The translations under genes and the position numbers were made by a program. From Anaerosoma tenue (GTDB lineage Bacteria; Actinomycetota; Coriobacteriia; Anaerosomatales; Anaerosomataceae), in the NCBI RefSeq assembly GCF_023161965.1, contig NZ_JALNTY010000001.1, positions 124,001 through 188,000 on the forward strand: a stretch of 64,000 nucleotides of DNA, read 5' to 3'. The notes under the pieces were generated by a model. That model saw only the letters and a list, made by a program, of their open reading frames with translations. It had not been told where the DNA came from and did not search any database. How positions within the stretch are numbered: position 1 is the first letter of the stretch; every line of letters starts with the position of its first letter. Shown piece after piece: positions 993 to 29,032 of this stretch.

Positions 993-3772
<2,780 letters not shown>

Positions 3773-5055: not shown

Positions 5056-5663
5056 GGAAGCGACTCCGCCTTGGCATCATGGGCGGCACGTTCGACCCGA
5101 TCCACTACGGTCACCTCGTTGCCGCTGAAGAGGCCCTTGTCCAGTTCAATCTGGACAAGGTGCTTTTCATGCCCACGGGTACCCCTGCGCGCAAGACGGA
5201 CCAGCGCGTGACCCCGGCCGAGCACCGCTACCTGATGACCGTCATCGCCACTGCGAGCAACCCCGACTTCGAAGTGAGCAGGCTGGAGATCGACCGCCCC
5301 GGAGTGACGTACACGGTCGACACGATGACCGAGTTGCGTACCCGGTACGGGGACAGCGCCGACCTCTTCTTCATCACCGGTGCGGACGCCGTGCTGGAGA
5401 TCCTCACCTGGAAGGACTCGGCGCGTCTGGCGGACCTGTGTACGCTCATCGCGGCTACACGTCCCGGCTACGACCTGTCGCCGTTCATGGAGCGGCCGGT
5501 GCCGTCGGGTCTGCGGGTTGAGACGATGGAGGTGCCGGCGCTGGCCATATCGTCCACGGACATCCGTGCGAGGATGGCGTCGCGCAGGCCTGTCCGCTAT
5601 CTCCTCCCGGAGGCTGTGGCGGCGTACGTGAGCAAGAACCGTCTCTACCGGGGGGACGGCTGA
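5052..5663 (+). CDS. nadD: Nicotinate-nucleotide adenylyltransferase
   Basis: Transfers AMP from ATP to nicotinate mononucleotide in NAD synthesis. The 203-residue protein has the nucleotidyltransferase signature GGTFDPIHYGHL near residue 10 and the C-terminal ISSTDIRARM motif. The frame is open far upstream (from 4758), but that part is only a shadow of proA. The GTG at 5052 overlaps the proA stop as GTGA and gives the normal family length. It leads the conserved nadD-yqeK-LCP-rsfS block. Confidence 0.95.
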   Translation: MRKRLRLGIMGGTFDPIHYGHLVAAEEALVQFNLDKVLFMPTGTPARKTDQRVTPAEHRYLMTVIATASNPDFEVSRLEIDRPGVTYTVDTMTELRTRYGDSADLFFITGADAVLEILTWKDSARLADLCTLIAATRPGYDLSPFMERPVPSGLRVETMEVPALAISSTDIRARMASRRPVRYLLPEAVAAYVSKNRLYRGDG

Positions 5664-8888: not shown

Positions 8889-11800
8889 ATGGCTGCGGTA
8901 AGCGAACGGGTCGAGAGACAACTCGGGGAGATCTTCGGTGATCGGATGCGTACCGATCGCGTTGAGCGCAAGCTCTACTCCTCGGACATCGGGGCGATGC
9001 CCCGGCTGATCAAGCCGCTCGTACCCACCGGGATCGCTGGCGCGATCGTGCGCCCGGTGAGCGAGGACGAGGTCGTGGCGCTCATGCGGGTGGCGCGCGC
9101 CGAGCGCGTGCCGGTGGTGCCGCGCGGGATGTCGACATCCGGTTACGGTGGCGTGCTTCCGGTGGAAGGCGCGATCGTGGCGGATATGTCGGCCATGGGC
9201 GGTCTTATCTCGGTGGACGCGGAGCGGATGACCGTGCGCGTCTTCGGCGGGACGCTTTGGGAGCCGCTGCAGAAGCAGCTCAACCGCAAGGGGCTCGACC
9301 TGCTGCTGTACCCGTCGTCGTTGCCGTCCTCCACGGTGGCCGGCTGGTTCGCCCAGGGCGGCGCCGGATTCGGAAGCTACGAGCACGGCTTCTTCAAGGA
9401 GAGCGTTCACTCGGCGCGTGTCGTGCATCTCGACGGCGCCGTGAAGGAGTACACCGGCGAAGAGCTCGAGCAGATCGTCGCCGATGCCGAGGGCATCACC
9501 GGCATCATCACCGAGATGGAGATCGGCATCCGCGCCCTCGAGGACGAAGTGCACCGCGTCCTCGCGCTCCCCACGAACGAAGCGCTGCAGAAGGCGCTCT
9601 CCGCGATCTCGGCCGAGAAGCTGCCGATCTGGTCGCTCACGTTCCTCAATCCCGAGTCGATCAAGCTCAAGAAGACCCTCCCGCATCGCCATGGTCACCC
9701 GTACGAGATGGCGCACGAGCACTATGAGCCCGTGCTGCCCGAGGAGTTCCTCGTGGTGATCGCGTACCCGGCGTCGCGTCACGAGGCGATCGATGCGCCG
9801 CTGCGCGCGATCCTCGAGGCCGCAGGCGGTACCGAGCTCGACGCCGAGGCGGCCGAGCACGAATGGGAGCTCCGCTTCGCGCCGATGCGCCTCAAGCGCG
9901 TGGGACCGTCGATCGTGCCCACCGAGGTCGTCGTGCCGCTCGACCAGCTCGGCGAGGTGCTCGGCAAGATCGATTCACGCGTGAAGCAGCCGTTCGTGCT
10001 GGAGGGCATGCTCGGCAAGGGTGACAAGGTGGTCCTGCTCGGCTTCATCCCGCACGACGAGCGCTCGCTCGCGTTCAACATCGCATTCGCCCTGTCGCTC
10101 GTGGTGATCAAGATCGCCAACGAGCACCGCGGCGGCGCGTACTCCACGGGTCTGTACTTCCGGCAGGAGGGTAAGAAGGTCCTCGGCCAGGCCAAGATCG
10201 CGGCCCTGGAGGCGTTCAAGCGCGCCAAGGACCCGGGCGACCTGCTCAACCCGAAGAAGGTCCTCGGTACGAGCCTGCTCAACGGCTTCATGAAACTCGC
10301 GCTGGCCTTCGAGCCAGTCGTGCGCCCCATCGCCAATCTCGCCACTCCGCCCGACAAGGTCGAGTCGCTCGAGACCAAGAACGGCGTACCCGGCGACGTG
10401 GCCTTCTACAGCTACGCGTGCGCCCAGTGCGGCTACTGCGTGCCCACCTGCGAGGAGTACAGCGTGCGCGGCTGGATGAGCCACTCGCCGCGCGGGAAGT
10501 ACGCATACCTCAAGGAGGTTATCGAGGGCCGGGAGAAGATCGACCAGAAGATGGTGGACACCTTCCTCGTGTGCACCACCTGCGAGGTCTGCAACACCCG
10601 CTGCCAGCTGCAGCTGCCGGTGGAGCACTCCTGGATGTCGATGCGCGGCCAGCTCATCCACGAGGAAGGTCGCATGACCTTCCCGCCGTTCGAGATGATG
10701 GGCGCGGCGCTGCAGGGGCAGCTCAACATCTGGGCGGGCAAGCGCGAGAAGCGTGCCGACTGGATGCCCGAGCACATCGCCGAGAAGATCGACCCCACAT
10801 CGGATGTGCTGTACTTCGCGGGCTGCACCGCAAGCTACGTGAACACCGACGTGGCCAAGTCGTCGGTGGAGCTGCTCGACGCCGCGGGCGTGAAGTTCAA
10901 CTACATGGGTACCGATGAGGCGTGCTGCGGCATCCCGATGAAGGTCTCCGGCAAGTGGGACGTCTTCGAGGAGATCTACGAGCACAACACCGCCGAGGCG
11001 CGGAAGCGCGGCGCCAAGACGATCGTGACGTCATGTCCCGCGTGCGGGCTCGTGTGGAAGGAGCTCTACGCCGACATCGCCGCCGAGCGCGGGGAGGCGT
11101 ACGAGTTCGAGGTGAAGCACTACTCGGAGATGGTGGCCGACGCGATCGCTGAGGGAGCGCTGGAGTTCACGCACGAGGTGGACAAGAAGCTCACGTTCCA
11201 CGACTCGTGCCACATGGGTCGTGCGCAGGGCAACTACGAGCCGCCGCGCGATATGCTCAAGGCGATCCCGGGCGTGGAGCTCGTCGAGATGGAGCACAAC
11301 CGGGAAGAGGGTCTGTGCTGCGGCTCGGTGCTCACGCTCATCGGCGAGACGCCGGTGGCCCCCGAACTCGGCAAGATGCGTCTGGACGAGGCGGTCGACG
11401 TGCAAGCCGACGCGATGGTGGCGCTCTGCCCGTGCTGCCAGGTGCAGCTGCGCGACTCGGCCGACAAGCGCGACATCCCGATGGAGGTCATCGACCTCGC
11501 GCACGTGGCGATGGACGGCCTCGGCATCGCGCATGAGGATCCGAGCCCGTACGCCAAGGAGATGTGGGGCTACTTCGAGAAGTTCATCTGGCTCATGAAG
11601 CCCGAGTCGATCACGAGCATCATGGTCGCCATGCTGCCGGACATGATGAAGGCGATGCCGCCCGCGATGCTGCCGATGATGCGCGCGGCGCGTGCGGTGC
11701 CGGACGGCCTGGCGATGATGGGCAAGATGATGCCCGCCATGATGCCGAAGATGATGCCGTCGATGATGCCCAAGGTCATGCCGGCGATGCTTGAGGAAGT

Positions 11801-20022: not shown

Positions 20023-21090
20023 ATGTCACGCCTGCGAGAAGGACGGGTCCTCCCGTTGGCCGTCGTGCTTGTCATGACGATCTTCTGGGCTGCATCGTCT
20101 CGCCCTGCGGCGGCCTATCCCGACTGGGATCCCGCGCCCTCTCCACTGGCCGCGGAGGACTGCGACCACTGCCACTCGGCCACGAGCTCGGGCGGTACCG
20201 CGGAATGGGACGGCAGTGGACCGCATGGAGGCTACCTCACCAGCACGAACAAGTGTCAGTTGTGTCACGTGGTGCACAAGTCGCCGAGTGATTCGGTGGT
20301 GTTGCTGCGTACCACCACGGTGACCGGGATGTGCATCATGTGCCATGACGGCACCGGGAGCTCGATCGGCGTCTACTCTACGATCGAGGCTCATGGGGGC
20401 ACCGTGGCCGCCGAGCACCGTGTGGAGGTAACCGACATCGTCCCGGGCGGATCGAGCGCCCTGGGCAGCGCGCTTGGGTGCTCCGACTGCCACTCCGTAC
20501 ACGGTTCGAACACGGTCGCTCCTTTCTTGCGGGACAGTGGTCGCGCGTACGCAGCGGATGAGTACGTCATCTCAGACTGCCTGCTTCGCAACGACGTACG
20601 TTCCGGGGTGCCGGACTCCGTTCCCGAGTACGGAGCGCTCTGGTGCGCAGCCTGTCACGATGAGCGCCACTCCGGGTCGGGCACGACCGTCAACCATCCT
20701 GTGGACGGCGATTCGTCGTGGGGCTACGGGGACGTTCGCTCAACGATCCGTACGGACGACTCCTGGCGCGAGGCGCTCACCGGGGGAGTGGCTACAGGCA
20801 TGGGTCGCACGAACAGCGGTTACCTGATGGCACCTGTGGAGTCTGCCGGTGACGGGCGGATCGAGGAGGTCGACCGGCGTGATCCCATGTGCCAGCAGTG
20901 CCACGAGGACGCCCGAGACGTGGAAACCGTGTTCAGTGCCGATTACACGATGCGGGGGACCGAACCCTGGAACACACCCGTGAACCCGGTCTTCGTCACG
21001 TTCCCGCATCAGACGACCAACGACATGCTGTTGGTTGAGCAGTACGACGACCTCTGCACGAACTGCCACCCGGTGACGGGACTGCCTTAG
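20023..21090 (+). CDS. Secreted seven-haem c-type cytochrome
   Basis: A 355-residue exported protein with a signal peptide (LPLAVVLVMTIFWAASSRPAAA, cleavage near residue 32) and seven CxxCH haem c sites: CDHCH 47, CQLCH 78, CIMCH 104, CSDCH 153, CAACH 208, CQQCH 290, CTNCH 345. Several are followed by VHK, VHG or DxxH residues that may serve as distal ligands. The sequence between sites is poorly conserved and no named subfamily could be assigned, though it resembles doubled-CxxCH proteins. Start ATG is at 20023. It ends about 80 bp before the giant cytochrome and is probably co-transcribed. Role inferred: electron transfer outside the cytoplasmic membrane. Confidence 0.9.
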   Translation: MSRLREGRVLPLAVVLVMTIFWAASSRPAAAYPDWDPAPSPLAAEDCDHCHSATSSGGTAEWDGSGPHGGYLTSTNKCQLCHVVHKSPSDSVVLLRTTTVTGMCIMCHDGTGSSIGVYSTIEAHGGTVAAEHRVEVTDIVPGGSSALGSALGCSDCHSVHGSNTVAPFLRDSGRAYAADEYVISDCLLRNDVRSGVPDSVPEYGALWCAACHDERHSGSGTTVNHPVDGDSSWGYGDVRSTIRTDDSWREALTGGVATGMGRTNSGYLMAPVESAGDGRIEEVDRRDPMCQQCHEDARDVETVFSADYTMRGTEPWNTPVNPVFVTFPHQTTNDMLLVEQYDDLCTNCHPVTGLP

Positions 21091-21169
21091 ACGACTGAAG
21101 GTGTTGGCCGGGCGTGAATGGATGACCGGACCGGAAGACGGTGCTGCGAGACTCGCAAGGGAAGAGATG

Positions 21170-24100
21170 ATGAAGCGTTCAGGCGCTATGCGTATTGCGG
21201 TCCGGTCGTTCGTGGCGCTGGCGATCGCGCTGGCGGTGGTCCTGCTTGTGGCGCCGGGCGACAGCACGCCGTCACAGGATGGGCCAGTGAGTGACGATGC
21301 GGTCGCTGACGCGCGGATCGGCGGCGGTTCCCTCGACGCGGAGGTGCACTCGCTTCAGGAGTCCCCTATGCCCTCCGATGGCGTGACACGATCCGGCGAC
21401 GCGATCGCGGTGGAGCCGCCACCCGTCGCAGCGGTGATTCCCGATGTCGATGCAGGGGAGGCCGAGTCCCCGGCGCCCGGCGATCCGGCGGAGGGCTCCG
21501 ATGATCCGGCCGAGGATCCTGCCGATCCAGCCGACGAGCCCGCTGATCCCGGCGATGATCCCCCCGGTTCCGGTGACGAGCCGGACGATCCTGCTGATAC
21601 CCCCACTGACCCTGGCGAGGAGCCCGCCGACCCGGGCGCGGACCCCGGCGATGATCCGGACGCACCGGCAGAGCCGCCGTCGACGCCGGCTGCGCCAGGC
21701 GTTGTCACCGCCGTAACGTGCGTCTCTGGTGACATGACGGACATCGTGCGGTTCGACCTGCCTGACGATGGTGGTGACGTGAGCGCCATCGTGCTCTCCC
21801 GTGCCCTTTCTCCGGAAGGACCGTACGAGGAGGTGCGCTCGGCCGACGGTGGTGTACGGGAGATCCGTCATGCGGTCGAGTCCACGGGCACGGCGTACTA
21901 CCGCGTCCATGCCGAGGGCCCCGGCGGGCAGGGCGAGAACAGCGCGATCGTGCGTAACGCAGTGGTGGAGGCGACGGCAGAGGTAGGCGTGGACGGGTAC
22001 ACGATCCGGTCCTCCAACGGCGAGATCGTCCTGGCATTCCCCGCAGGCGCGTACGAGGAGACGACGACCGTGAACGTCCGGGAGGTATCCGGGTCCCCGG
22101 TCGGCGGTATCCTCGCGTTCGCCGGCATCTACGACATCGAACCGTCCGGCCCGCTTGGGAAGCCTGTGCTCCTGTCGGTGGCGTTCGACCTGGCGGTGAC
22201 GCATTTCCAGGTCTCTGACGCGTTGCTTCGGGCGGCGGGTCTGTTCACGTTCGATGACGGCGCGTGGGTTTCCGGAGCCGACCACATCATCGCCGAGGGT
22301 GGCTACATCACCGGCTCGGTGGATCACTTCTCGGCATGGACTCCCGGCTCCCCGTCGCCTCACGGCACCAACGCCGAGGCCAGCGACTACTGCTCCGGCG
22401 TCTGTCACGACCTCAGCACGTATCCCGGTTCGTCTGTCCGGTACGACACCCGGGACCCCCAGGTCTGCTACAACTGTCACGGTAACGCCGATGCCGCCGA
22501 CCCGCCTCGCAGCGGCGAAGGCGACAACGTGCAGGCGGAGTTCTTCGACGTGGCGGGGCAGAGCGTGCCGGCGATGTCCTCGCGTCACCCGGTGGCCAAC
22601 GGCGGTTTCTACTGCACGCTGTGCCACGATCCCCACGGCACGTCATCCGATTCCCCCGGGCTGCTCAGGGCGTGGGACCCTGCTACAGGCGGTTACGTGC
22701 AAGGCGGCGCCGGAACCGCGCCCGGCAACGCGTACTGCTGGACCTGCCACGGACCGAGCAGCAACCGCCGCGTCAACTACTACGTGAACGGCTACTACAG
22801 CAGCACCGGTGGTGACCACAAGACGCTCCTTGAGGGGACGCCTCACGCCTCGCTTTCCACAACGGGCGGCACGATCGCCTGTCTCGCCTGCCACGTCTCG
22901 CACGGTTCCGTGTCCAGCTCGCTGGCAAAGGTGGGAGACGTGGCGGGTGCAGCCGCAACGGGCAACGACCAGAGCCTCTGCCTCGCGTGTCACGCAGACG
23001 CATCAGGCGGGTATTCGGGTGGCGCGGCGTACGGCATGACCAGACACTCCTCGGTGGCGGTCTCAAGCGTCGCCGCAACGGGATGGCCCACGTCCGACTC
23101 GGCGACGGGCTCCTGCCAGAACTGCCACGATCCGCACGGAGGGGCCGGCGGACAGTACCTGAGGGCGTCCGGTGCGGACCTGTGCCACGGCTGTCACGAT
23201 GTCGCCGGCCTGTCCTACCCGGCCGACTACTCCTATCAGGGTACTGCGGCGTACGGCGCATCGGGTCACGCGGGTCTCACGGGCACGCTCGGGTATCTCG
23301 GCTTGAGCACCACCAGCGAGGGTTTCGCGGCATGGCAGTCGAGCGCCATGCCCACACCGTCGGCACCCGGCACACCGATCACCGACGCTGGGGCGATCGA
23401 TCAGGTTCGCTCGATGGACGGGTCTCGGCTGCGCACGCTGCTGCAGGGGACGACCGGGTCGGACGACTACCAGATGTTCCGCTTCAAGGTGCCCGCGCCG
23501 AGCGCCGAGGTGGTGAACGCCACACTGCGCTGGGCCGGCTATGGCGAGGAGACGGCGGGGTATCCCGTCACGCTCTCGGTCTGGTCGGCCACCGCGTTGG
23601 CGTGGGAGCAGGCGGCAAGCCAGGTGATGGGCACGCAGCAGCTCGTGACGGTCCCACTTCGGCCCGCCGACCATATGGATGCCGAGGGATACGTGTACTT
23701 CCTTGCCGGGGCGCGCCATGTGGTGGACGGCGAACTCATCTCAGGCCCCACGTTCACCAAGGTCAGCGACACGTCCATCAAGGTCGAGTGGACCACAGCC
23801 GGTAACACGTCAAGCTGGGTGGACTACGGGACCACCACCGCGTATGGCAGCAGCGCCGGGACCGGGACCCGCACGACATCCCACTCGGTCACGGTGACCG
23901 GGCTGACCGCCGGCACCTGGCACTTCCGCGTCCGTTCCACCTCGCCACAAGGCGAGGACTACGTATCCGGGGACTACGCATACGGGTTCCCCATGCCCAA
24001 GCTCACGACTCCGTATCCTGCGAGCCACGTATACGATGGGACCACGGTGTCGCGCTCGTTCTACTGGGAAGCGATGAGCGGTGCGGCCGGTCCCTACGAG

Positions 24101-27100
24101 TACCGGTTCCAGCTGTGGCGCGACGGCTCGCTGTTGATCGACGCGCCGTGGGGCTCTTACACGTCGTACACGTACAGCGACATCCGTGATGTGGCCAGCT
24201 ACGCCTGGCGTGTCGAGGTGCGGGACGCACAGGGTCTGTCGTACGGATGGTCCGTGTGGCACCGCTTCTACGTGTATGAGGACTCCGGCTCCTGCCCGTT
24301 CCTGTTCACCTGGGACGGGGAGCGGTTCGCCTTCGAGGCCGACCTGTTCGGTCCCGGCAAGCTGGCGCTCAAGACCAAGAGCGGCTACATGAAGCCCACC
24401 CCTGATGACGTCTACGTCCTCGCGCACGAGCCGCAGCTCGTCGACGGACGCATCGACCTGCGGCTTGTGGAGGAGCGCTTCGAGACCGACTACCTCGACG
24501 AGCTCGCCCTCTACGCCATCGACGTGCCGGAAGGCCGCGACGTCTATGCCGAGAAGCGCGAGGCGGGAGGCGCAGCCTTCGGGGGCGTGACAAGCGTGCT
24601 GCATACCGTGGCGCGCGAGATGGCGTCCCCGGTCTCGGCGGTCCACACCCAGACGGGTCGTGACGTGCTTGCGCTCGTGGCCGCCGACGACGGCGAGCAG
24701 GTCGTCCTCAACGAGGACCGCAACGAGGACTTCACCTACCAGACCATCGAGCTCGACCTGGGAGAGGTGGCGGGCGCCGGGCAGCTCAAGGTCGTGATGG
24801 ACGCGGTCTCGATGTTCCCGGACACCCCGGCCGGCACCGCGCGTGCCTCGACCTTCGGGCCCCGCACCAGGCTCGAGGTGCAAGACGCCGCCGGCGCGTG
24901 GGTGGCGGTGCCGGCCTCCGCAGGCGCGCTTCCCAAGCCGCCGGAGTTCAGCCGCCCCTACGTCTTCGACCTGAGCGACATCTGGGTCTCGGAGAGCAGG
25001 AAGGTCCGCTTCACGTTCCTGATGAAGACCTACGTCGACTGGATCGCGATCGACACCACAGAAGACCTGCCGGTCGCGGTGACCGAGGTGCCGCTTGCCT
25101 CCGCGGTCCTCACCGAGCGCGGCTACGACCCGAAGTCCTCCGACGGGGAGATCTACGAGTACGTCTACGGTGAGCCGAGCGGGCGCACCGGCTACTTCCC
25201 CGGCGCCTATACGAGACTCGGCGAGGTCGCCCCGCTGCTCGCCGCCACAGACGACATGTTCGTCATCTACGGCGGCGGCGACGAGCTGCAGCTGTCCTTC
25301 GAGACGCCCGACGCACCCGCAGACGGCACCTCGCGCCGCTACGCCGTCCACACCAACGGCTACTACAAAGACGCCAAGACCGACGTGGACACCACGGTGG
25401 AGCCGCTGCCCTTCGCCGCGATGAGCACGTTCCCCTACGGCGCAGACGAGCACTACCCCGACGACCCCGAACATGAGGCCTACCGCGCCGAGTGGAACAC
25501 GCGCGTGAAGAGCGGGGGAGCCTCTGTGGTCGCGCAGATCGCGGGACCTGCGAGCCTGGTACCCAGGCTGACGGGGGTCCACGGGTGGGTCGGGGCTGCG
25601 CTCGCGACCGTGTCGGCCGATGTGGAGCCCGTGGCCGAGATAGCCGGCTCCGCCGATACCGTTGCCGTGGAGGGGTATCCCGTCGACCACCGATCGCTCA
25701 ACACCGACCTCGTCTCCCTGGATGTGTCGTTCACGGGTGCCGCGGGCGGGGGAGAGTGCGGGGTGTGCCACAACGTCCACGGTGGCTCGGAGAGCGGTAT
25801 CGCTCTCGATGGTGGTCGCGCCGCGAGCGACGGTCGTACGTGTACCGCCGACGGCACGGGCGGCTGTCACAGCAATGCCGCCAACTCCGCCTCCGGTATC
25901 GACATCCACGATCGTTTCACCGCGAACGCTGATCCTCGCGCGCACCATGACGTCTTCGCGTCGGACCAGGTGAAGACGGGCAGCAGGATCGGGTGCGCCG
26001 ACTGCCACGACCCCCACACCAACAACAGCGAACAGCGCTACTCGGATCCCGACGCGATCTCTCAGCCGGTGAGTTCGGCTCTGGGCTCTCTCATCGGTGA
26101 GGATGGCTCGGTGTACATGCTCGTGGGCGCGGCCCATGATGGCGTACCGCCGGTGATCAGCGGCGCGCGGTTGAACGGTGCAGGGGACCAGTATCTCTCG
26201 CCGACGATCACGTGGACCACCGACGAGAAGGCCACGTCGTGGGTCGACTGGGGTCTGACGACCGCGTACGAGATGGGCAACGCGAGCGCGGGAAGCCCGT
26301 TCGGCAACGACACCCTCGTGACGGCGCACTCCGTGCAGATGACCGGGCTGCAGGATGGTGTCGTGTACCACTATCGCATCAGGACCGCCGACGCACTCGG
26401 GAACGTCGCGTACTCGGCCGACATGACCTACGTTCCAGTGGCGCCTCCAGCAGCACCGGTGATGAACGATCTGGTCTCCGTGTCGGGCACCGGCTGGGGT
26501 CCGATCACCGCTACTCTGGGGTGTACGCCCACCACATCCAGCGACGGTCACGCAGTCCAGTACCAGTTCAGGGTGGACGGCAGCTCGGTGTACGTGTCGG
26601 GATGGCTGGACTCCACGAGCTTCACCACGCCGGCGTGGCTGTACACGGGGACCCACTATGCGCAGGTGCGCGCCCGTGACGCCGTTCATACTGACGCGAT
26701 CTCCGCATGGTCGGCGGCCGACCACTTCGATGTCCTGTACGCGGACGCCTCCGGCTCCTGCCCGTTCCTGTTCACCTGGGACGGGGAGCGGTTCGCCTTC
26801 GAGGCCGACCTGTTCGGTCCCGGCAAGCTGGCGCTCAAGACCAAGAGCGGCTACATGAAGCCCACCCCTGATGACGTCTACGTCCTCGCGCACGAGCCGC
26901 AGCTCGTCGACGGACGCATCGACCTGCGGCTTGTGGAGGAGCGCTTCGAGACCGACTACCTCGACGAGCTCGCCCTCTACGCCATCGACGTGCCGGAAGG
27001 CCGCGACGTCTATGCCGAGAAGCGCGAGGCGGGAGGCGCAGCCTTCGGGGGCGTGACAAGCGTGCTGCATACCGTGGCGCGCGAGATGGCGTCCCCGGTC

Positions 27101-29032
27101 TCGGCGGTCCACACCCAGACGGGTCGTGACGTGCTTGCGCTCGTGGCCGCCGACGACGGCGAGCAGGTCGTCCTCAACGAGGACCGCAACGAGGACTTCA
27201 CCTACCAGACCATCGAGCTCGACCTGGGAGAGGTGGCGGGCGCCGGGCAGCTCAAGGTCGTGATGGACGCGGTCTCGATGTTCCCGGACACCCCGGCCGG
27301 CACCGCGCGTGCCTCGACCTTCGGGCCCCGCACCAGGCTCGAGGTGCAAGACGCCGCCGGCGCGTGGGTGGCGGTGCCGGCCTCCGCAGGCGCGCTTCCC
27401 AAGCCGCCGGAGTTCAGCCGCCCCTACGTCTTCGACCTGAGCGACATCTGGGTCTCGGAGAGCAGGAAGGTCCGCTTCACGTTCCTGATGAAGACCTACG
27501 TCGACTGGATCGCGATCGACACCACAGAAGACCTGCCGGTCGCGGTGACCGAGGTGCCGCTTGCCTCCGCGGTCCTCACCGAGCGCGGCTACGACCCGAA
27601 GTCCTCCGACGGGGAGATCTACGAGTACGTCTACGGTGAGCCGAGCGGGCGCACCGGCTACTTCCCCGGCGCCTATACGAGACTCGGCGAGGTCGCCCCG
27701 CTGCTCGCCGCCACAGACGACATGTTCGTCATCTACGGCGGCGGCGACGAGCTGCAGCTGTCCTTCGAGACGCCCGACGCACCCGCAGACGGCACCTCGC
27801 GCCGCTACGCCGTCCACACCAACGGCTACTACAAAGACGCCAAGACCGACGTGGACACCACGGTGGAGCCGCTGCCCTTCGCCGCGATGAGCACGTTCCC
27901 CTACGGCGCAGACGAGCACTACCCCGACGACCCCGAACATGAGGCCTACCGCGCCGAGTGGAACACGCGCGTGAAGAGCGGGATCCAGGGTGGCGACGCT
28001 GCGGTTGCGGCGACTGCATCCGCATCTGAAGCGGCGCCCACCGTATGGCGCACGGCGCACGTCGATTCTGCGGCCGCACCGCAGGCGCTCCAGTACTCGG
28101 TGGACACCGACGTGATACGGGTGATCGCTTACACCGACGGCGTTCCTGCCGTCCACGCGCCCGCAGCGGGATGGGAGACGTCTTCGCATACTGCGTCAGC
28201 GCCAACGCCGGCCTCGCCCGGATCGCCTGTGGATGCCGCGGCGCTCGGCCAGGTCTCGGTGTCGGACGACGCGTACTGGCGTACGGACCTGACGGCGGTC
28301 GACGGCGAGTGGAACTGGCAGGTCGTGAGGTTCGATCTGGATGCCGGCGCCGTGTACCAGCTCGATGGCCTCGCGCTCGACTGGGAGGGTCACGGTGAAC
28401 CGACACCCGGGTACCCGACCGCACTGTATGTCTGGGATCCCGAGAGTGGTGCGTGGGCGGAGCTCTCACGTGCGGACATGCCCGTGGACCGGAGGGTGCA
28501 GGTGCAGCGCAGCGCGGTGAGCGATGGGTACTGTCTCGCGTGCCATGATGGAGACGCCCCGGAGGGGGTCGTCATTCCCGGGTCGGTGGGCGATGTGGGC
28601 GCAACGTGGGCGACGGACTTCCACGGCGGCCGTGCGGGGAACGGATTCGGAGACGCGGGCCTCAAGTTCCCATACAGCCGTGGGCAGTCGCCACTATCAT
28701 GCGCGACATGCCACGACACGCACGGGTCGGCCAGTCTCTATCACGTGCCGGAGGTCGTGAACGGGACATCCGTTCCTACGATCACCACGAGCGGGATGGC
28801 CCCCCTGTGCAAGGCGTGCCATGAGGGAGCTACGTACGACTGGCACCTCGATACGGCCTGCTGGTGTCACTACGTGCCGCTGTGGGAGCCCGTGTACCAC
28901 GATGCTGCCTTCGAGTTGCACGACGGGATCGACTGCCTGCAGTGCCATGGGCACGGGAAAGGGTCGACCCATCCGGCGGTGGATTGCGAGGACTGTCATG
29001 GCAGCGCGCCACGGGGCGTGCGCGCCTTCTAA
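21170..29032 (+). CDS. Giant multidomain multihaem c-type cytochrome (2620 residues)
   Basis: An exported protein with an N-terminal hydrophobic helix (about 10-32) and a Pro/Asp-rich linker (about 95-175). A ZU5-like beta domain (about 265-390) follows. Fourteen CxxCH haem sites fall in three clusters: residues 433, 482, 523, 571, 604, 649, 672; 1530, 1609; and 2455, 2511, 2547, 2589, 2606. Irregular candidates are CSGVCH (408), CWCH (2564) and a CX7CH (1558). Between clusters lie two fibronectin-III-like domains (...SSWVDYGTTTAYG; ...TSWVDWGLTTAYE), each followed by a beta domain and then a 411-residue unrecognised module starting CPFLFTWDGERFAFEADLFGPGKL. The two modules (1039-1449, 1861-2271) appear identical. 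No C-terminal anchor is visible. ATG 21170 follows AAGGGAAG; ATG 21167 is equally possible. Role inferred: long-range extracellular electron transfer or a surface redox scaffold. Confidence 0.88.
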   Translation: MKRSGAMRIAVRSFVALAIALAVVLLVAPGDSTPSQDGPVSDDAVADARIGGGSLDAEVHSLQESPMPSDGVTRSGDAIAVEPPPVAAVIPDVDAGEAESPAPGDPAEGSDDPAEDPADPADEPADPGDDPPGSGDEPDDPADTPTDPGEEPADPGADPGDDPDAPAEPPSTPAAPGVVTAVTCVSGDMTDIVRFDLPDDGGDVSAIVLSRALSPEGPYEEVRSADGGVREIRHAVESTGTAYYRVHAEGPGGQGENSAIVRNAVVEATAEVGVDGYTIRSSNGEIVLAFPAGAYEETTTVNVREVSGSPVGGILAFAGIYDIEPSGPLGKPVLLSVAFDLAVTHFQVSDALLRAAGLFTFDDGAWVSGADHIIAEGGYITGSVDHFSAWTPGSPSPHGTNAEASDYCSGVCHDLSTYPGSSVRYDTRDPQVCYNCHGNADAADPPRSGEGDNVQAEFFDVAGQSVPAMSSRHPVANGGFYCTLCHDPHGTSSDSPGLLRAWDPATGGYVQGGAGTAPGNAYCWTCHGPSSNRRVNYYVNGYYSSTGGDHKTLLEGTPHASLSTTGGTIACLACHVSHGSVSSSLAKVGDVAGAAATGNDQSLCLACHADASGGYSGGAAYGMTRHSSVAVSSVAATGWPTSDSATGSCQNCHDPHGGAGGQYLRASGADLCHGCHDVAGLSYPADYSYQGTAAYGASGHAGLTGTLGYLGLSTTSEGFAAWQSSAMPTPSAPGTPITDAGAIDQVRSMDGSRLRTLLQGTTGSDDYQMFRFKVPAPSAEVVNATLRWAGYGEETAGYPVTLSVWSATALAWEQAASQVMGTQQLVTVPLRPADHMDAEGYVYFLAGARHVVDGELISGPTFTKVSDTSIKVEWTTAGNTSSWVDYGTTTAYGSSAGTGTRTTSHSVTVTGLTAGTWHFRVRSTSPQGEDYVSGDYAYGFPMPKLTTPYPASHVYDGTTVSRSFYWEAMSGAAGPYEYRFQLWRDGSLLIDAPWGSYTSYTYSDIRDVASYAWRVEVRDAQGLSYGWSVWHRFYVYEDSGSCPFLFTWDGERFAFEADLFGPGKLALKTKSGYMKPTPDDVYVLAHEPQLVDGRIDLRLVEERFETDYLDELALYAIDVPEGRDVYAEKREAGGAAFGGVTSVLHTVAREMASPVSAVHTQTGRDVLALVAADDGEQVVLNEDRNEDFTYQTIELDLGEVAGAGQLKVVMDAVSMFPDTPAGTARASTFGPRTRLEVQDAAGAWVAVPASAGALPKPPEFSRPYVFDLSDIWVSESRKVRFTFLMKTYVDWIAIDTTEDLPVAVTEVPLASAVLTERGYDPKSSDGEIYEYVYGEPSGRTGYFPGAYTRLGEVAPLLAATDDMFVIYGGGDELQLSFETPDAPADGTSRRYAVHTNGYYKDAKTDVDTTVEPLPFAAMSTFPYGADEHYPDDPEHEAYRAEWNTRVKSGGASVVAQIAGPASLVPRLTGVHGWVGAALATVSADVEPVAEIAGSADTVAVEGYPVDHRSLNTDLVSLDVSFTGAAGGGECGVCHNVHGGSESGIALDGGRAASDGRTCTADGTGGCHSNAANSASGIDIHDRFTANADPRAHHDVFASDQVKTGSRIGCADCHDPHTNNSEQRYSDPDAISQPVSSALGSLIGEDGSVYMLVGAAHDGVPPVISGARLNGAGDQYLSPTITWTTDEKATSWVDWGLTTAYEMGNASAGSPFGNDTLVTAHSVQMTGLQDGVVYHYRIRTADALGNVAYSADMTYVPVAPPAAPVMNDLVSVSGTGWGPITATLGCTPTTSSDGHAVQYQFRVDGSSVYVSGWLDSTSFTTPAWLYTGTHYAQVRARDAVHTDAISAWSAADHFDVLYADASGSCPFLFTWDGERFAFEADLFGPGKLALKTKSGYMKPTPDDVYVLAHEPQLVDGRIDLRLVEERFETDYLDELALYAIDVPEGRDVYAEKREAGGAAFGGVTSVLHTVAREMASPVSAVHTQTGRDVLALVAADDGEQVVLNEDRNEDFTYQTIELDLGEVAGAGQLKVVMDAVSMFPDTPAGTARASTFGPRTRLEVQDAAGAWVAVPASAGALPKPPEFSRPYVFDLSDIWVSESRKVRFTFLMKTYVDWIAIDTTEDLPVAVTEVPLASAVLTERGYDPKSSDGEIYEYVYGEPSGRTGYFPGAYTRLGEVAPLLAATDDMFVIYGGGDELQLSFETPDAPADGTSRRYAVHTNGYYKDAKTDVDTTVEPLPFAAMSTFPYGADEHYPDDPEHEAYRAEWNTRVKSGIQGGDAAVAATASASEAAPTVWRTAHVDSAAAPQALQYSVDTDVIRVIAYTDGVPAVHAPAAGWETSSHTASAPTPASPGSPVDAAALGQVSVSDDAYWRTDLTAVDGEWNWQVVRFDLDAGAVYQLDGLALDWEGHGEPTPGYPTALYVWDPESGAWAELSRADMPVDRRVQVQRSAVSDGYCLACHDGDAPEGVVIPGSVGDVGATWATDFHGGRAGNGFGDAGLKFPYSRGQSPLSCATCHDTHGSASLYHVPEVVNGTSVPTITTSGMAPLCKACHEGATYDWHLDTACWCHYVPLWEPVYHDAAFELHDGIDCLQCHGHGKGSTHPAVDCEDCHGSAPRGVRAF
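24283..25516 (+). repeat. 1234-bp intragenic direct repeat, copy 1
   Basis: From CTCCGGCTCCTG (24283) to AGCGGG (25516). It matches copy 2 at a constant offset of 2466 bp. Translations in all frames of both strands that I compared are the same, so silent positions match too. Encodes the 411-residue CPFLFTWDG module. Confidence 0.93.
26749..27982 (+). repeat. 1234-bp intragenic direct repeat, copy 2
   Basis: Second copy of the repeat at 24283-25516. Similarity stops sharply at both edges: the base before the shared CTCCGG and the base after AGCGGG differ between copies. Confidence 0.93.

Follow-up and report, generated by a model that had tools for sequence, protein, structure and literature searches.

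Results and Discussion

Two Indistinguishable Domains in One Cytochrome Gene

Two domains encoded by a single gene of Anaerosoma tenue M08DHB are indistinguishable in the assembled genome, and recurrent intragenic gene conversion (concerted evolution) very probably offers the best explanation for this pair, as the initial annotation of this DNA had proposed. The strain belongs to the order Anaerosomatales (OPB41) of the class Coriobacteriia and comes from a terrestrial mud volcano (PMC9686372); its genome assembly comprises 2,107,022 bases in 6 contigs. In the 64-kb window, meaning the whole stretch of DNA that was analyzed, exact comparison of positions 24283-25516 with positions 26749-27982 reveals 0 differences over 1234 bp at an offset of 2466 bp. 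This pair is the only exact repeat of at least 30 bp in the window, which excludes chance as its origin, and the 1234-bp sequence has no further occurrence in the whole A. tenue genome. The identity extends to silent positions, as previously described: an exact alignment that might have exposed many synonymous differences contains none, and 239 of 239 comparable fourfold-degenerate sites agree.

The repeat is located in a giant gene (21101..29032, + strand) whose product comprises 2,643 amino acids when read from a GTG codon, and an in-frame ATG is present near position 21170, upstream of a signal-peptide-like stretch. Given its 14 CXXCH motifs and this signal-peptide-like N-terminus, which was recognized by eye, the product is a multihaem c-type cytochrome. 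Pfam matches were obtained to Paired_CXXCH_1 (1.7e-22), to an MtrC/MtrF-like family (6.6e-10), and to Pur_ac_phosph_N. The locus order is holA, a gene for a 355-aa multihaem cytochrome (20023..21090, + strand, with 7 CXXCH motifs and a Pfam match to Paired_CXXCH_1), the giant gene, lepA, and hemW. The smaller multihaem gene is a conserved neighbor, and the giant gene adjoins it between holA and lepA in A. tenue and several relatives. We rejected an opposite-strand candidate gene (23810-28189, − strand), because its 1459-aa ORF lacks a Pfam match and is most probably a shadow ORF of the high-GC giant gene.

The encoded modules follow one another on the + strand in the order A-haems, left module 1, X1, B-haems, left module 2, X2, and C-haems. 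The N-terminal haem cluster (A, 22466..23200) was delimited from motif positions and Pfam and has 7 CXXCH motifs. Motif positions likewise define the B-haem module between X1 and the second left module (25517..26059, 2 CXXCH), which is found once per gene in relatives, and the C-terminal module (27983..29032, 5 CXXCH), which is also conserved once per gene. Each X copy is preceded by an FN3-like left module of 230 aa, located at 23594..24283 for slot 1 and at 26060..26749 for slot 2, the latter being the site of the Pur_ac_phosph_N match.

The first base of the repeat is the last of a codon; the remainder consists of exactly 411 codons in phase. It is therefore precisely one 411-codon domain, here named “X,” with copy 1 (slot 1) and copy 2 (slot 2) 100% identical. 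At either edge, identity falls from 100% to ~28% (ungapped, chance level), and the outermost 200 bp at each end of the domain are still the same in both copies. As the initial annotation had noted, the flanks share an architecture but have diverged. The two left modules exhibit only ~30-39% protein identity over their aligned parts, their DNA is no more similar than shuffled DNA, and the modules to the right of X1 and X2 are entirely different from each other.

Old Flanks Surround X Domains That Group by Genome

X is present (E <1e-10) in 17 of the 69 genomes of the order. In most of these, a single gene with the module order described above holds two X slots at a spacing of 2.4-2.5 kb, as seen in independent assemblies. 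In a tree of left modules, slot-1 and slot-2 representatives form two separate clades across the order with 100% support for the split, which dates the duplication to before the origin of the order. Each A. tenue left module is orthologous only to the left modules that occupy the same slot in relatives, and for the modules on either side of X the best match invariably lies in the corresponding slot. The X tree, however, is organized differently: the copies of A. tenue (G000), Yes46-06 (G008), and G038 cluster by genome, and those of G016/G020 and of G011/G018/G024 cluster within a close genus group. Even when G000 and G008 are omitted, an AU test rejects separate-slot clades of X (dlnL 356, p-AU 4e-95). 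The earlier proposal that an old module duplication was homogenized in its core is thus supported, and it gains a second genus with a pair of its own.

That second pair is found in Yes46-06, a metagenome-assembled genome (MAG) from a different genus, in which X1 and X2 differ by 1 mismatch in 1247 bp (99.9%); the differing base is the third of its codon and lies 152 bp from one edge. The X domains of A. tenue and Yes46-06 are 81% identical in nucleotides, 80% in amino acids, and 59% at fourfold sites. Because the copies are nearly identical within each genome and so different at silent sites between them, they must have been equalized after the genera split or kept equal since. The X pairs of both organisms branch with the slot-1 copies of G004 and G014 with full support, which suggests that slot 1 was probably the donor. 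No close sister strain carries the gene: the three congeners of A. tenue in the collection (G001-G003) have neither X nor the between-slot module.

Other relatives exhibit different degrees of homogenization. In G004 and G014 the slots have diverged, such that the same slot is 93% identical between these genomes and the two slots are 64% identical within one genome. The X copies of G038 share 29 identical codons in a row (0/5000 shuffles), including 90 bp of exact identity, and those of G011 share a run of 17 identical codons (p ~0.01), as expected of patchy, partial tracts. Long identical codon runs between X copies are absent in G004, G014, G016, and G020.

Several individual loci depart from the common layout. 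The EMTCatB1 gene (G005, L047 2253-6014) contains a single unit with a type B X domain (see below); it lacks X1 and the left module of slot 1, and its A and B haem parts are joined. The initial annotation had suggested that the repeat could drive length variation; the EMTCatB1 gene shows that the number of units varies across the order, but its breakpoint lies outside X. In the Yes46-06 gene, the C module is split over two frames (L033 ~3346-3591, L049 ~9476-9488) by a frameshift or a sequencing error, and the frame consequently ends 97 aa past X2. In the G024 gene, the B-haem module that separates X1 from a type B X2 is interrupted by a break in the reading frame and lacks a stretch of sequence (L046 ~5390-5395). 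Finally, the G043 MAG has a run of Ns inside X1, representing a scaffold gap within the repeat domain (L038 ~1004-1100), and its X1 and X2 are placed apart in the X tree.

We propose that the unit of left module plus X in an exported multihaem cytochrome was duplicated before the Anaerosomatales radiated. The modules around both X slots would then have diverged freely, and the X domains would have been re-equalized repeatedly by homologous recombination within the gene. The route could have been gene conversion, or unequal exchange followed by contraction, both of which leave the same sequence. In the latest round in A. tenue, the tract would have spanned the whole domain and ended where sequence similarity ends. 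Slot 1 is the most likely donor in A. tenue and Yes46-06, and transfer would presumably have proceeded from slot 1 to slot 2. RecA-type recombination is the probable agent, and selection for two equal X copies may favor the outcome.

Alternative Explanations for the X Pair

A divergent form of the domain (type B, 32-37% identical to the A. tenue X) occupies slot 2 in five relatives (G005, G021, G024, G029, and G039), which suggests that slot 1 has probably overwritten slot 2 repeatedly. Since the distance between type B and X is about that between the two left modules, type B may be the ancestral slot-2 domain, overwritten by type A several times. One possibility is that slot 2 is an exchange site at which ancestral B was replaced by A as a domain cassette with domain-exact borders, sometimes from other genomes, with better-conserved domain ends helping. 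In agreement with this, slot 2 holds A wherever it does not hold B, and G024 carries B in slot 2 where its genus-mates G011 and G018 carry A, with flanks that agree. Moreover, 62-68% of bases are alike at the ends of A and B in most pairs, compared to ~46% in the middle, and such ends could assist domain-exact swaps. However, the shared runs at these ends measure just 4-15 bp, the position of B in the trees is partly weak, and losses and regains are not safely countable. We consider this reading possible but doubtful. A broader version, which we hold just as tentatively, is that both X slots are exchange sites, where the conserved ends would guide the swapping of whole A or B domains, with borders exactly at the domain limits, from slot to slot and from genome to genome, and the electron-transfer modules between the slots would be left untouched.

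The intragenic conversion that we favor must also be weighed against the way in which the sequences were assembled. Reads of 250 bp are too short to span X, and the arrangement A-X-B-X-C presents a loop to an assembler, which may hide sparse differences inside X and which allows the turns of the loop to be counted by depth alone. The M08DHB genome was produced exclusively from MiSeq 2x250 bp reads (PMC9686372), which fall well short of the 1.2-kb domain, and the Yes46-06 contig name has the SPAdes form. In both genomes, the assembler could therefore have merged scattered differences within X. It is solid that the X copies are nearly identical, and it is likely but unproven that they are perfectly identical and exactly two.

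A stronger form of this concern is that two X copies differing by a few per cent were collapsed into one consensus, which was then written twice, or that the X-B loop is present more than two times, given that coverage alone fixes the loop number. The sole Yes46-06 mismatch fits such merging, as it was retained near an edge, where reads still touch unique sequence. However, identity also extends through the terminal 200 bp at both ends of X, where reads can be tied to the unique flanks. Copies only 60-80% alike could not be merged into one, and so the copies must be nearly alike in any event. In addition, the two slots recur in many independent assemblies. On balance, an assembly artefact is an unlikely source of the X pair.

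If the second copy had arisen by recent tandem duplication, once in A. tenue and once more in Yes46-06, exact identity would follow without any need for conversion, but we judge this origin highly improbable. Such an event would also have copied the flanks, whose DNA has diverged to the background level and which are orthologous slot by slot to those of other genera, and the spacing between slots is conserved. Flank orthology refutes this scenario unless X alone dropped exactly into an existing slot, which amounts to the overwriting of one slot by another. Strong purifying selection that keeps the copies alike without DNA exchange has almost no claim to consideration. X is indeed more conserved than any other module of the gene when A. 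tenue is compared with Yes46-06 (80% aa identity versus 46-69% for the flanks), but silent sites refute selection as the only cause, given that every fourfold site agrees within the genome and 59% do between the genera.

Possible Role of Domain X

X yields no match in Pfam, even at E 0.5, and an X profile yields no match among solved structures (PDB). Relatives with 42-63% identity occur in Desulfuromonadaceae, Nitrospirae, and other groups, and several of these proteins are multihaem. More distant relatives (30-36% identity) form the C-terminus of TPR/FG-GAP proteins in Planctomycetota, Acidobacteria, and Cytophagales. In TPR/FG-GAP/ASPIC-UnbV proteins of Acidobacteria, Cytophagales, and others, this C-terminal domain is ~30-36% identical to X over its full length. 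However, the proteins examined lack haem motifs and are encoded with one copy per locus, unlike the A. tenue gene. A Riflebacteria MAG carries two separate ORFs on one contig (L060, L063), each with an X relative and without a haem motif. One of these proteins also includes Glucodextranase-B and FN3 matches and a weak type-IV-pilin-like match at its N-terminus. Our guess is that X serves as an extracellular binding or docking domain. X is an undescribed and widespread domain, and it stands out as the part of this cytochrome for which selection seems to favor a pair of equal copies.

Comparison with Known Systems

The giant protein shares its many CXXCH motifs with outer-surface multihaem cytochromes of the MtrC/MtrF type and matches Pfam MtrC/MtrF domains II/IV. 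However, it is distinguished by its length of 2,643 aa, its FN3-like modules, and its two X domains. A. tenue does not use Fe(III) for growth (PMC9686372). Papers reporting gene conversion in multihaem cytochromes were sought, and none was found in the library searched.

The gene offers a natural record of gene conversion within a single bacterial gene, in slots of known common age. X pairs are homogenized in some genera, patchy in others, and diverged in the rest, and the unconverted modules between them serve as an internal control, so that tract length, borders, and direction are measurable. It also provides a warning that genes of this type are unsafe in short-read assemblies.

Repeats resembling the X pair have been described in assembly-line polyketide synthases under the name GRINS (Nivina et al. 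2021, as outlined in PMC10394414). According to that outline, GRINS measure ~1 kb, are often >90% identical, lie inside one modular gene, are attributed to gene conversion, and are frequent in Actinobacteria. The A. tenue repeat is likewise ~1 kb long, and its identity to its counterpart elsewhere in the gene exceeds 90%. However, its GC skew of -0.05 and TA skew of -0.09 do not approach the >25% that characterizes GRINS, and it resides in a multihaem cytochrome gene rather than in an assembly-line polyketide synthase gene. Given the nucleotide skew, we rejected its identification as a GRINS.

A closer parallel is the recurrent concerted evolution of duplicated prokaryotic genes such as tuf, amoCAB, haoA, cycA, and others (PMC6053082). 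In these families, copies within a genome are closer than orthologues, at silent sites as well, repeatedly across species, and gene conversion is credited with the effect (PMC6053082). That set also includes c-type cytochrome genes. The same pattern is observed for X: within-genome copies are closer than orthologues, including silent sites, in A. tenue and Yes46-06; the duplication predates speciation, as judged from the left-module clades and slot-to-slot best matches; and several lineages are affected, namely A. tenue, Yes46-06, G038, and the ancestors of G016/G020 and of G011/G018/G024, in keeping with the AU test. The process is already known, and the example is new, well controlled, and seen across the whole order. 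Whereas tuf, amoCAB, and their counterparts are whole genes, the A. tenue case concerns a pair of domains encoded 1.2 kb from each other within a single gene, and the modules between them escape homogenization.
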